From Streptomyces lydicus (GTDB taxonomy: Bacteria; Actinomycetota; Actinomycetes; Streptomycetales; Streptomycetaceae): DNA of 64,000 nucleotides. The stretch lies in contig NZ_RDTE01000003.1 of the NCBI RefSeq assembly GCF_004125265.1, positions 2,976,001-3,040,000 of the forward strand. The letters are read 5' to 3'. A program made the translations under genes and the position numbers. Under the pieces are notes generated by a model that saw only the letters and a list, made by a program, of their open reading frames with translations, was not told the origin of the DNA and did no database searches. This document shows, piece after piece, positions 1 to 3,024 of the stretch. How positions within the stretch are numbered: the stretch's first letter is position 1; each line of letters begins with the position of its first letter.

Positions 1-178
1 CGTCGGCCGGGGACTCGGCGAAGAAGACCTCGGGGTCGTAGGTGCGGCACGGAACGGCGGCGCCGAGGCGGTCGATCTCGTCGTCGAGCTCGGTGAGCGG
101 AAGCAAGGAGTTCTCCTGAGGGTCGGGCGGAGGGATCAGGTCGGTGGCTACGGACGGGGTGTGCGCCTGCAGTTGCAC
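1..178 (-). CDS. wblC: WhiB-like regulator WblC/WhiB7 (5' part, runs off the window)
   Basis: Only the first 59 codons are inside the window; the 3' end lies beyond base 1. The visible part has a short variable N-terminus (VQLQAHTPSV) followed by VPCRTYDPEVFFAESPAD. That is the start of a WhiB domain, with its first iron-sulfur cysteine followed by the typical FFAES motif. WblC/WhiB7 is a [4Fe-4S] transcription factor that partners the housekeeping sigma factor to induce intrinsic resistance to translation inhibitors. I chose the GTG at 178-176 because the reading frame and the family N-terminus extend to it. A TTG at 106-104, seven nt downstream of an AGGAG, is the alternative. The gene lies downstream of uvrD2 on the same strand, as whiB7 does in mycobacteria. 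The long leader suggests transcription attenuation. The remaining cysteines and the AT-hook cannot be seen. Confidence 0.9.
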   Translation of the reverse strand, partial: MQLQAHTPSVATDLIPPPDPQENSLLPLTELDDEIDRLGAAVPCRTYDPEVFFAESPAD

Positions 179-253
179 GGTGGTGTGTTCCTCGTCTGTT
201 CGGCCCGGCTGGTGGCGGGCGCGCTTGTGGCGGTCCCCCCTAGCCGGAGGCTT

Positions 254-300
254 GGGGAAAACAAAAGGGCCGCGGATCCCGGTGTGGGTTCCGCGGCCCT
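254..300 (-). terminator. Intrinsic terminator in the wblC leader (attenuator)
   Basis: On the minus strand there is a perfect 11-bp stem (266-276 with 290-300) extended by CCC/GGG inside the loop. It is followed at once by the T-rich run TTTTGTTTT. It ends 76 nt before the wblC start, so it would stop transcription before the gene unless it is prevented from forming. Its 5' arm contains GGCCGCGG, which can pair with an upstream segment at 353-360. Confidence 0.85.
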
Positions 301-326
301 GGAAGGTGCCGACCTGATCGTGCCGA

Positions 327-650
327 TCAGGCTGGATCTCTCCAGGGTTCGTGGCCGCGGTAGGCCCACGTTTCATGCTGCGTCTGGTACTGCTTCCGGG
401 ATCCGGCACCATTGGCCGCCGCGAAGACAAAGGCATTCGCCGATGCCGCCGCTGCTACCGCAGATGCCTCGGTCGGTCGCTCGCCACGCTCGCTGCGCGT
501 CAGCACGGCGAGCGACTCGGGGCGCGCGACCCCGATACCGGACAGGCGGCCGAAGCCGGACATACCGGTACCAAGGAGCGAGGAGCCGAGCGGGCAGGTG
601 GCGATGACCGAGAGATCGGTCATTTTGTTGGTCTCGATGATGCTGATCAC
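327..650 (-). CDS. Upstream ORF in the wblC leader (putative attenuation peptide)
   Basis: A 107-codon frame starts at GTG 650-648 behind a strong AGGAGG spaced 8 nt (start MISIIETNKM) and ends 27 nt before the terminator stem at 300. It matches no family I recognise. An internal ATG (MTDLSVIATC) would give a shorter product. It sits between the probable wblC promoter and the terminator, so its translation could decide whether the terminator forms. uORF-mediated control of wblC/whiB7 is established in actinobacteria; that this exact frame is the regulatory one is inference. The middle is Ala/Ser-rich without clear domain character, so the encoded protein itself may not matter. Confidence 0.55.
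   Translation of the reverse strand: MISIIETNKMTDLSVIATCPLGSSLLGTGMSGFGRLSGIGVARPESLAVLTRSERGERPTEASAVAAAASANAFVFAAANGAGSRKQYQTQHETWAYRGHEPWRDPA
353..360 (-). promoter_or_regulatory. Candidate antiterminator segment of the wblC leader
   Basis: The minus-strand RNA here reads CCGCGGCC, inside the last codons of the upstream ORF (Tyr-Arg-Gly-His). It is complementary to GGCCGCGG in the 5' arm of the terminator at 290-300. Pairing the two would break the terminator stem. This gives two mutually exclusive structures, which is an inference from complementarity only. Confidence 0.45.
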
Positions 651-764
651 TGGGCTCGCCTCCTCTCGGCGTCTCGGTGGACCGGGAATCCCGTTCCAGG
701 GTGTTCAAGTACAGCACGGATCCATCGGATCTCGGAAAGAAACCGTTGTCTCCGTTGCTTGTGA

Positions 765-803
765 AGGCTATGGGGATGCGCTCCGCGCGCGCAAACTATT
801 TTT
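765..803 (-). promoter_or_regulatory. Probable wblC promoter, overlapping the uvrD2 stop codon
   Basis: On the minus strand an AT-rich run (AAAAATAGT, 803-795) directly precedes a -35-like TTGCGC (794-789). An 18-bp spacer and a -10-like TAGCCT (770-765) follow. WhiB7/WblC is known to need an A/T-rich patch just upstream of the -35 at its own promoter and target promoters, and this layout fits autoregulation. The AT-rich patch contains the end of uvrD2. Transcription would start near 758, giving a leader of about 580 nt. Confidence 0.5.
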
Positions 804-3024
804 CCGACGAGTTTTCCGCGGCGTCCCGGGGTCCGTCCCCCGAGCCCCCCACGAGCTCCTCGCCGGCACAGATAGCCAGCACGTCGCTGCCGTAGCGGTC
901 GAACTTCCGCCGCCCCACTCCCGAGATGACCGCAAGCTCCGCTTCGGTTCCCGGCACGGCCTCCGCGATCGCCATCAGGGTCTTGTCGGTGAAGACGCAG
1001 TAGGCGGGCTGCCGGGAACGCGCCGCCTGCTCGGCCCGCCACGCGCACAGCCGCTCGTACAGCGCCTCGTCGAGCTCCGAGGGGCAGTCCTCACACCGCA
1101 TCAGCTTCATCTCGCCCGCATCGGTGAGGGTTTTGTTGCAGACCCGGCAGCGGGCCGGGCTGCGGTGCCGGGGGCGCCGCGCCACCGCCGCCGCCCCGTC
1201 ACCGCGCTCGACGCCCCCGGAGACCGCGCCCGGTGTCCGGCGTCCGGCCGCCGCCCCGGACCCGGGTCGCAGGCCGCTGAGGAAGCGGCTGGCGCGGCGG
1301 GAGGCCCGCCCGCCGGGAGAGCGCGCCAGCGACCAGGACAGGCCCAGATGCAGCCGGGCGCGGGTGACGCCGACATAGAGCAGGCGGCGCTCCTCCTCGA
1401 TCTGCTCGTCGGTCTTGGCGTAGGTGATCGGCAGCATGCCCTCGGTGAGGCCGACCAGGAAGACGGCGTCCCACTCCAGGCCCTTGGCGGCGTGCAGGGA
1501 CGCCAGGGTCACCCCTTCGACCGTCGGGGCGTGCTGGACGTTGGCCCGCTCGTCCAGCTCGGCGACGAGGTCCGCGAGGGTGGCCGCGGGCCGGGCCCTG
1601 GCGAAGTCCTCGGCCAGCCGGACCAGGGCCGCCAGGGACTCCCAGCGGTCCCGCACCGCCCCGGAGCCGGCCGGCGGCCTGCTCGTCCAGCCCATGTCGC
1701 TGAGCACCGCCCGCACCTCGGACGGCAGGTCCAGGGCGTCATCGAGCAGCGCGTCGTTGGCACCGAAGCGGGCGGCGCCGCGCAGCTTGACGCCGGCCTC
1801 ACGCACCTCGGGCCGCTCGAAGAACCGCTCGGCGCCCCGCAGCTGATACGGCACCCCCGCGTCGGCCAGCGCCTGCTCGTAGACCTCGGACTGGGCGTTG
1901 ATACGGAAGAGCACGGCGATCTCCCCGGCAGGCACACCGGAGGCGATCAGGTCACGGATCCGGCGGGCGGTGCCCTCGGCCTCGGCGGGCTCGTCGGCGT
2001 ACTCCGTGTACCCGGGCTCGGGGCCGGCCTCGCGCTGCGAGACCAGCTCCAGTCGCTGCTCGGCGGCGCGCCCCCTGGCCTGGGAGAGCAGACCGTTGGC
2101 GAGGTGCACGACCTGGGGGCTGGAGCGGTAGTCGCGGACGAGCCTGACGACCGTCGCGTTCGGATGGCGGGTGCGGAAGTTGAGGAGGTGGTCCGGGGTG
2201 GCGCCGGTGAAGCTGTAGATCGTCTGGCCGGCGTCGCCGACCACGCAGAGGGTGTCGCGGTCCCCCAGCCACAGCTCCAGCAGCCGCTGCTGGAGCGGGC
2301 TGACGTCCTGGTACTCGTCGACGACGAAGTGCTGGTACTGGGCCCGGACCTGCTCGGCGATGTCGTGCCGGTCCTGCAGCACACCGACCGTGAGCAGCAG
2401 CACATCCTCGAAGTCGATGCTGCCGCGGTCGCGCTTGAGCTGTTCGTAGGTGCGGTAGATCTGCCCGACCTCGGCCGGGTCCCGAGGGGCCTCGCGGCCG
2501 GCCTTGGCGACGGCGGCGGGGTAGTCGGCCGGCACGGTCTGAGTGACCTTGGACCATTCGATCTCGGCCGTGACATCGCGCAGCTCATTGCGGTCCAGCC
2601 GGATGCCGCAGCGGGCGGCGGCCTCGGCGACGAGCTGGATCTTGCGCTCCAGCAGCCGCGGGACCTCACCGCCGACGGCCTTGGGCCAGAAGAACTGGAG
2701 CTGCCTTAGGGCGGCGGAGTGGAACGTCCTGGCCTGGACCCCGCCCGCGCCGAGCTGCCGCAGCCGGCCGCGCATCTCGCCGGCCGCGCGGGCCGTGAAC
2801 GTGACCGCGAGCACACTCGCGGGCTGCAGGATCCCGGCCCGCACCCCGTAGGCGATCCGGTGGGTGATCGCGCGGGTCTTGCCCGTGCCGGCACCGGCCA
2901 GCACGCAGACGGGACCGTGCAGAGCCGTGGCGACCTCGCGCTGCTCGGGGTCGAGCCCGTCGAGCACCCCGTCGGCCGAGTCAGGCACCTGCGGGAAGAG
3001 AGAGGAGTCCGTTGCTGCTGTCAC
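796..3024 (-). CDS. uvrD2: ATP-dependent DNA helicase UvrD2
   Basis: A 742-aa superfamily 1A helicase. Walker A GAGTGKT is at residues 44-50 and motif II VVDEYQD near 234. Conserved UvrD motifs extend to about residue 570 (LHAAKGLEWDAVFLVG and a C-terminal VTRAR). A four-cysteine zinc-binding segment (CRVC...CEDC) follows near 622-650, and then a C-terminal HRDC domain ending VISGVGRRKFDRYG. This motor, tetracysteine and HRDC order is the UvrD2 architecture known from mycobacteria. It unwinds DNA 3' to 5' in repair or replication. It lies directly upstream of wblC, as in mycobacteria, and diverges from the mycoredoxin gene. Length is normal and no damage is seen. Confidence 0.93.
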   Translation of the reverse strand: MTAATDSSLFPQVPDSADGVLDGLDPEQREVATALHGPVCVLAGAGTGKTRAITHRIAYGVRAGILQPASVLAVTFTARAAGEMRGRLRQLGAGGVQARTFHSAALRQLQFFWPKAVGGEVPRLLERKIQLVAEAAARCGIRLDRNELRDVTAEIEWSKVTQTVPADYPAAVAKAGREAPRDPAEVGQIYRTYEQLKRDRGSIDFEDVLLLTVGVLQDRHDIAEQVRAQYQHFVVDEYQDVSPLQQRLLELWLGDRDTLCVVGDAGQTIYSFTGATPDHLLNFRTRHPNATVVRLVRDYRSSPQVVHLANGLLSQARGRAAEQRLELVSQREAGPEPGYTEYADEPAEAEGTARRIRDLIASGVPAGEIAVLFRINAQSEVYEQALADAGVPYQLRGAERFFERPEVREAGVKLRGAARFGANDALLDDALDLPSEVRAVLSDMGWTSRPPAGSGAVRDRWESLAALVRLAEDFARARPAATLADLVAELDERANVQHAPTVEGVTLASLHAAKGLEWDAVFLVGLTEGMLPITYAKTDEQIEEERRLLYVGVTRARLHLGLSWSLARSPGGRASRRASRFLSGLRPGSGAAAGRRTPGAVSGGVERGDGAAAVARRPRHRSPARCRVCNKTLTDAGEMKLMRCEDCPSELDEALYERLCAWRAEQAARSRQPAYCVFTDKTLMAIAEAVPGTEAELAVISGVGRRKFDRYGSDVLAICAGEELVGGSGDGPRDAAENSSEK

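Follow-up and report, generated by a model that had tools for sequence, protein, structure and literature searches.

The wblC leader and its parts

The DNA analysed here is a window of 64,000 nucleotides from Streptomyces lydicus, and on the minus strand of its positions 1 to 803 we found the end of a UvrD/HRDC helicase gene, a promoter core, an upstream open reading frame (uORF), a terminator, and the start of wblC. The helicase gene occupies positions 3024-796 (minus strand), upstream of the leader. The leader has the location expected of a WhiB7/WblC leader, in that the product encoded downstream matched Pfam Whib (E 9.3e-16), and the wblC frame, starting at GTG 178-176, is open up to its stop in L002. 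In the genus, WblC gave a single match at E <= 1e-30 in 148 of 150 genomes; the genomes G113 and G132 (100 and 99% complete, respectively) had no match at that threshold. The parts of the leader, in the direction of transcription, are as follows:

765-805, minus strand: promoter core, with GGAAAAATAG at 805-796, the -35-like TTTGCG at 795-790, and the -10-like TAGCCT at 770-765
659-664, minus strand: uORF Shine-Dalgarno AGGAGG, from the sequence and the Streptomyces-group comparison
327-650, minus strand: uORF of 107 codons, with a GTG start at 650-648 and a TGA stop at 329-327
405-467, minus strand: Ala-rich uORF segment, codons -46 to -26, from composition
266-300, minus strand: Rho-independent terminator hairpin, arms 300-290 and 276-266, -30.0 kcal/mol
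258-266, minus strand: terminator T-run TTTTGTTTT, from the sequence
1-178, minus strand: 5' part of wblC (Pfam Whib), GTG start at 178-176, the remainder of the gene lying beyond the window

The initial annotation had named a promoter, a uORF preceded by AGGAGG, and an 11-bp terminator with a T-run, and all of these were present when both strands of the sequence were read. The promoter core, GGAAAAATAGTTTGCGC...CCCATAG, was conserved across 142 distinct sequences, with most columns at 90% or more. Near 795-770 on the minus strand, it overlaps the last codon and the stop (798-796) of the helicase gene, and therefore its conservation there is partly coding. The WblC promoter motif is given in a figure legend of PMC7157823 as GAAAWY three bases before the -35; in the leaders, GAAAAA-TAG-TTTGCG was present and conserved, departing from GAAAWY in the last base. 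This promoter was not listed by a generic scan, which gave no sigma-70-type match to it, and the terminator between the uORF and wblC was likewise not listed, probably because of an A-A mismatch and a long loop.

When the best site in range was taken, all 153 leaders of the Streptomyces group (defined below) had a start codon preceded by a Shine-Dalgarno-like site, which was AGGAGG in 126 of them. A hairpin, ATGACCGA-TCTC-TCGGTCAT, lies early in the uORF (window 624-603, minus strand). Of 86 distinct segments from the Streptomyces group, 46 had a perfect stem of at least five pairs with a four-base loop near the uORF start, compared to 38 of 765 control windows, and the Asp codon at this hairpin was GAT in 73 cases versus GAC in 5. 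It is perhaps a hairpin at which RNA polymerase pauses.

The terminator stem consists of AGGGCCGCGGA at 300-290 paired with TCCGCGGCCCT at 276-266, a perfect helix of 11 bp, with CCC/GGG pairing within the loop. The T-run (266-258) would place the 3' end of the RNA at about 263-258, and the end near 254 that had been proposed is a few bases too far downstream. Among the first-round leaders, a terminator was found in 137 of 138, and L028, which had failed the T-run filter, was recovered with a laxer one. A terminator candidate was present in 256 of 259 leaders, that of L208 being of another type and 255 having the expected core; by a lenient rule, an ORF ended 10-75 nt ahead of the terminator arm in 255 of the 256. 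A comparison of window 1-3000 with Rfam identified no described family; the three matches obtained were to unrelated families and scored far under the gathering scores of these.

Competing folds of the leader RNA

The minimum-energy fold of the nascent RNA 380-279 was a single long antiterminator hairpin (-49.0 kcal/mol), in which GUGGG 369-365 paired with 288-284, CCGCGGCC 360-353 with 298-291, and CUGGAG 345-340 with 304-299, in addition to a hairpin over the stop codon. The elements involved are:

365-369, minus strand: GTGGG, which pairs with CCCAC 288-284 as the outermost part of the antiterminator, from the fold only
353-360, minus strand: CCGCGGCC, antiterminator extension and the segment named in the initial annotation, from pair conservation
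340-345, minus strand: CTGGAG, antiterminator core on the uORF side (Trp codon -5)
332-345, minus strand: local hairpin CUGGA-GAGA-UCCAG, putative competitor of the antiterminator core, -6.2 kcal/mol, from conservation
313-331, minus strand: stop-codon hairpin of the uORF, in which 331-324 pairs with 320-313, from folding
299-304, minus strand: TTCCAG, foot of the terminator arm, forming the antiterminator core with 345-340
291-298, minus strand: GGCCGCGG in the terminator 5' arm, partner of 360-353, from folding

When the RNA was extended to 380-262, the terminator fold was obtained (-60.8 kcal/mol), and the same RNA with a forced antiterminator had -52.8 kcal/mol. Because the terminator fold is more stable by 8 kcal/mol, the switch would have to be kinetic, with the antiterminator winning by forming first. 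Blocking of 347-317 allowed the terminator to form without the antiterminator (-42.8 kcal/mol), the block standing for a ribosome at the uORF stop. The footprint 347-317 for a ribosome at the stop codon is an assumption; passages of PMC13236596 use a footprint of 26 nt in a comparable case.

The segment CCGCGGCC at 360-353 and the bases 298-291 are exact reverse complements, and the pairing of 353-360 with the terminator arm had been put forward as the antiterminator. What holds of this proposal is that the last uORF codons pair with the 5' arm; the segment itself proved to be an extension belonging to the Streptomyces group, the core being 345-340 with 304-299. Similarly, the idea that a stalled or absent ribosome frees the antiterminator is retained, but the control would not run through 353-360: a ribosome on the stop codon would, with the assumed footprint, cover about 347-317 and hence both the stop hairpin and the core helix, leaving 353-360 uncovered. 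Folding and the covariation described below point to an antiterminator that would be mutually exclusive with the terminator.

Base pairing across related leaders

Leaders were compared from genus and order matches, 80 named records, and class-level matches. The Streptomyces group comprises L003-L155, or 153 leaders including the window's own, with a few near relatives and some species present twice, and counts over 143 in this group are of distinct sequences. Outside the group, the 106 loci L156-L261 represent part of the order- and class-level matches. A non-redundant set contained 112 leaders, 97 of which are outside the Streptomyces group. L191, L246, and L253, which had no terminator candidate, and L208, which had no anchor in the arm, were left out, and 18 loci that failed the motif pattern were recovered through their known orientation. 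Assignment of the uORF outside the group was automatic and looked doubtful for L218, L245, L248, L254, and L259, all of which were kept. Related leader sequences are not independent events.

RNAalifold predicted zero pairs on a gappy MAFFT alignment of 109 leaders. Because the spacers were badly gapped in this alignment, helix counts were anchored on the Trp and stop codons and on the terminator arm, with swap and recoding controls. An alignment of 25 leaders, in which GGG-type and GG-type arms were offset by one column, was excluded from the counts.

Outside the Streptomyces group, the recurrent helix joins CCTGGAG of the uORF, whose Trp codon is usually the fifth ahead of the stop, to CTCCAGG, which lies at the foot of the terminator arm. 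It encloses the stop-codon hairpin, and its equivalent in the window is 345-340 with 304-299. Compensated examples are:

L232: CCTTTGAG with CTCAAAGG
L207: CCTCGAGG with CCTCGAGG
L163: CCTCGGGT with ACTTGAGG

In a fixed register, the 97 non-redundant leaders outside the group had 5.30 of eight pairs versus 4.89 for permuted partners (sd 0.084, highest of 5000 permutations 5.20), and a one-base slide reduced the value to 4.22 or 3.71. Seven or eight pairs were formed in 42 of the 97 leaders, and fewer than five of the eight in 32, including L242 and L243, the two leaders fetched from class-level family f6, in which the core helix was not seen in the fixed register. Changes on both sides were found in 61 of 776 cells, at pairs 3 to 8. 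It was also observed that L212, L216, L223, L224, and L261 encode uORF C-termini with DPL near the end in place of W-x-P-P, and that their core helix is off the usual register and their CCGCGG-like terminator is retained.

The swap control on the same 97 leaders gave -41.4 kcal/mol for native, -34.3 for swapped, and -31.9 for shuffled uORF ends, a cost of about 7 kcal/mol on average for the swap. Of the 97 leaders, 92 folded better with the native end than the swap mean and 96 better than the shuffle mean, and in 97 of 102 leaders outside the group the native fold was lower in energy than synonymous recodings were on average. A narrower test of helix energy with a wide search window gave a weaker result, the native end being better than swapped ends in 68 of 102. 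In the minimum-energy fold, the uORF end formed at least six pairs with the arm region in 100 of 102 leaders, which is weak when taken alone because shuffled ends average 7.8 such pairs.

Within the Streptomyces group, exact CCGCGGCC was present in 16 of 143 distinct leaders; all eight pairs of 353-360 with the arm could form in 21, and the first six in 136. The Arg codon at -10 was CGT in 102 and CGC in 41 of these leaders and in none was it CGG or CGA, two codons that specify 307 of the 811 Arg residues encoded by the uORF bodies. The Gly codon at -9 was GGG in 115 of 143 leaders (versus 8 of 1087 Gly codons in the bodies), and the Pro codon at -2 was CCA in 141 of 143 (versus 7 of 582 Pro codons). 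Synonymous change in ten comparisons with the window was 0.057 in the last 16 codons versus 0.178 in the body. When the final 48 coding bases were dinucleotide-shuffled, the pairs with the CCGCGG arm decreased from 7.5 to 3.6 on average, and the native end formed more of these pairs than shuffled ends in 15 of 15 non-redundant leaders of the group. Synonymous recoding left the fold unweakened in this group (-43.5 vs -43.4; native lower in 60 of 113), and a swap of uORF ends had little effect (native better in 9 of 15). The sequence evidence for the predicted pairing within the Streptomyces group is codon choice and the reduced synonymous change in the last 16 codons. A hairpin CTGGA-GNRA-TCCAG (window 345-332, minus strand), which as RNA would compete with the antiterminator core, was found in 127 of the 143 leaders.

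A lack of covariation of 353-360 with the arm had been set beforehand as refuting the pairing, but covariation was found: in L010, L262, and L263, a three-way compensatory change alters both terminator arms along with the uORF base. L010 was the sole arm variant, and when 392 genus genomes were searched by pattern, the variant arm was detected in two, that of L010 included. The two variant-arm leaders are identical at 442 of 450 positions, and therefore this covariation represents one evolutionary event.

The probable attenuator, its alternatives, and related systems

Attenuation of whiB7/wblC by a uORF, with a Rho-independent terminator, an antiterminator, and antibiotics or amino-acid depletion as signals, is described in passages of PMC11550727, PMC12421871, PMC13393426, and PMC9618640, which cite Lee, Lee & Roe 2022 (doi 10.1111/mmi.14834) for wblC/whiB7 attenuation. 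Because these accounts state it, the mechanism is already known; our sequence comparison supports it, including the control by uORF translation claimed in the initial annotation, and indicates more exactly which bases would pair. We consider it very likely that the locus is a wblC (whiB7) leader attenuator in which the ribosome controls a switch between antiterminator and terminator. This reading is based on the parts, their conservation, the predicted mutually exclusive folds, and covariation; from these we infer the start site, the ribosome positions, the kinetics, and the sensing of alanine in Streptomyces.

In this mechanism, transcription would start near 758, and RNA polymerase would transcribe the uORF followed by the strong intrinsic terminator. 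The last codons and the stop of the uORF would form the antiterminator, consisting of CTGGAG 345-340 with 304-299 round the stop hairpin and extended by CCGCGGCC 360-353 with 298-291, which would capture the terminator 5' arm before the 3' arm exists. A ribosome completing the uORF would occupy about 347-317 and disrupt the antiterminator, resulting in termination near 263-258. With the ribosome absent or stalled upstream, the antiterminator would form first and wblC would be transcribed. The upstream stall could come from a drug or an uncharged tRNA, perhaps within the Ala-rich segment.

Over the final 90 codons of 138 Streptomyces-group uORFs, the share of Ala was 19.4%, compared to 8.4 and 9.1% in the two alternative frames, with the Ala codons lying mostly at -26 to -47. 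The share in the final 60 codons of 102 leaders outside the group was 16.1%, and the 12-codon window with the most Ala contained 4.7 versus 3.6 and 3.3 in the other frames. Streptomyces may respond to alanine supply via this stretch. Judging from the title of work by Poulton in 2024, a response to alanine starvation has reportedly been found in mycobacteria, and a conserved Ala-rich stretch in Streptomyces would fit such a response.

A narrower version of the attenuator, in which the antiterminator consists of the eight bases 353-360 paired with the arm and the outcome depends on whether a ribosome sits on those bases, draws on the perfect 8-bp complement in the window and its presence in the nascent fold, on the restriction of the Arg codon to CGC/CGT, and on the compensatory change in the L010 lineage. 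We regard it as unlikely, given that the exact segment and all eight pairs occur in only 16 and 21 of 143 Streptomyces-group leaders, respectively, that the recurrent partner outside the group is CCTGGAG, and that a ribosome at the stop codon would not reach 353-360. The conserved C-terminus of the uORF product, WAFRGxEPWSDPA in the Streptomyces group and W-S-P-P-V in many others, could instead indicate a peptide that acts in trans or as an arrest peptide, with the RNA pairing secondary. However, the synonymous constraint on the last 16 codons (0.057 versus 0.178), with codons rare elsewhere in the uORF, a pN/pS of 0.70 in the uORF body, weak for a functional peptide, and a product without a Pfam or NCBIfam family match make this very improbable. 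Less probable still is that the promoter is the main control, through WblC autoregulation, and that the leader terminates a constant fraction of transcripts. WblC autoregulation is described in a figure legend of PMC7157823 and the promoter core is conserved, but class-wide covariation of the antiterminator would then serve no purpose, and passages of PMC7157823 and PMC13393426 assign both layers of control.

As a broader form of the ribosome-controlled attenuator, we tentatively suggest, with considerable doubt, a dual-coded antiterminator hairpin of the uORF's last and stop codons throughout the Actinomycetes. To this would be added a CCGYGG extension in the Streptomyces group, a competing CUGGA-GNRA-UCCAG hairpin that perhaps sets the threshold, and an early-uORF hairpin that perhaps pauses RNA polymerase until a ribosome loads; the uORF would sense alanine supply as well as ribosome stress in a graded manner. 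WblC/WhiB7 governs intrinsic resistance to ribosome-targeting drugs in actinomycetes, and the published model now has named base pairs that can be tested through compensatory mutation; the antiterminator pairing could also explain why the codons at the uORF end are unusual.

In the E. coli trp attenuator, as here, the position of the ribosome selects the antiterminator or the terminator. The trp leader has a dedicated anti-antiterminator, so that its untranslated RNA terminates, whereas untranslated wblC leader RNA would be expected to read through. The closest systems are the leaders of S. coelicolor wblC and of whiB7, which belong to the same gene family and, as far as the published excerpts go, have a uORF, a Rho-independent terminator, and an antiterminator that forms upon disturbed uORF translation, with antibiotics and amino-acid starvation as signals. 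For whiB7 of two mycobacteria, passages of PMC4128351 describe a uORF with a Shine-Dalgarno sequence and a drop of transcription past the uORF, near a stem-loop with a T-rich tail, and the layout is the same here. The M. tuberculosis ilvB1 attenuator, in the portions of PMC13236596 that describe it, shares a uORF, masking of the antiterminator by a ribosome at the stop codon, and stalling at amino-acid codons that permits it; it has a short leader with BCAA codons, whereas the wblC leader has a long uORF with an Ala-rich stretch. The Streptomyces ARE ABCF attenuators, as presented in parts of PMC12421871, share an antibiotic-responsive uORF, a terminator, and an antiterminator, but their uORFs are very short (e.g., MLV) and stalling is at the start codon.

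A minor observation concerns the wblC frame, which has no stop from ATG 436 to GTG 178 (window 436-178, minus strand) and thus runs through the terminator; a longer WblC N-terminus from this upstream ATG is formally possible.
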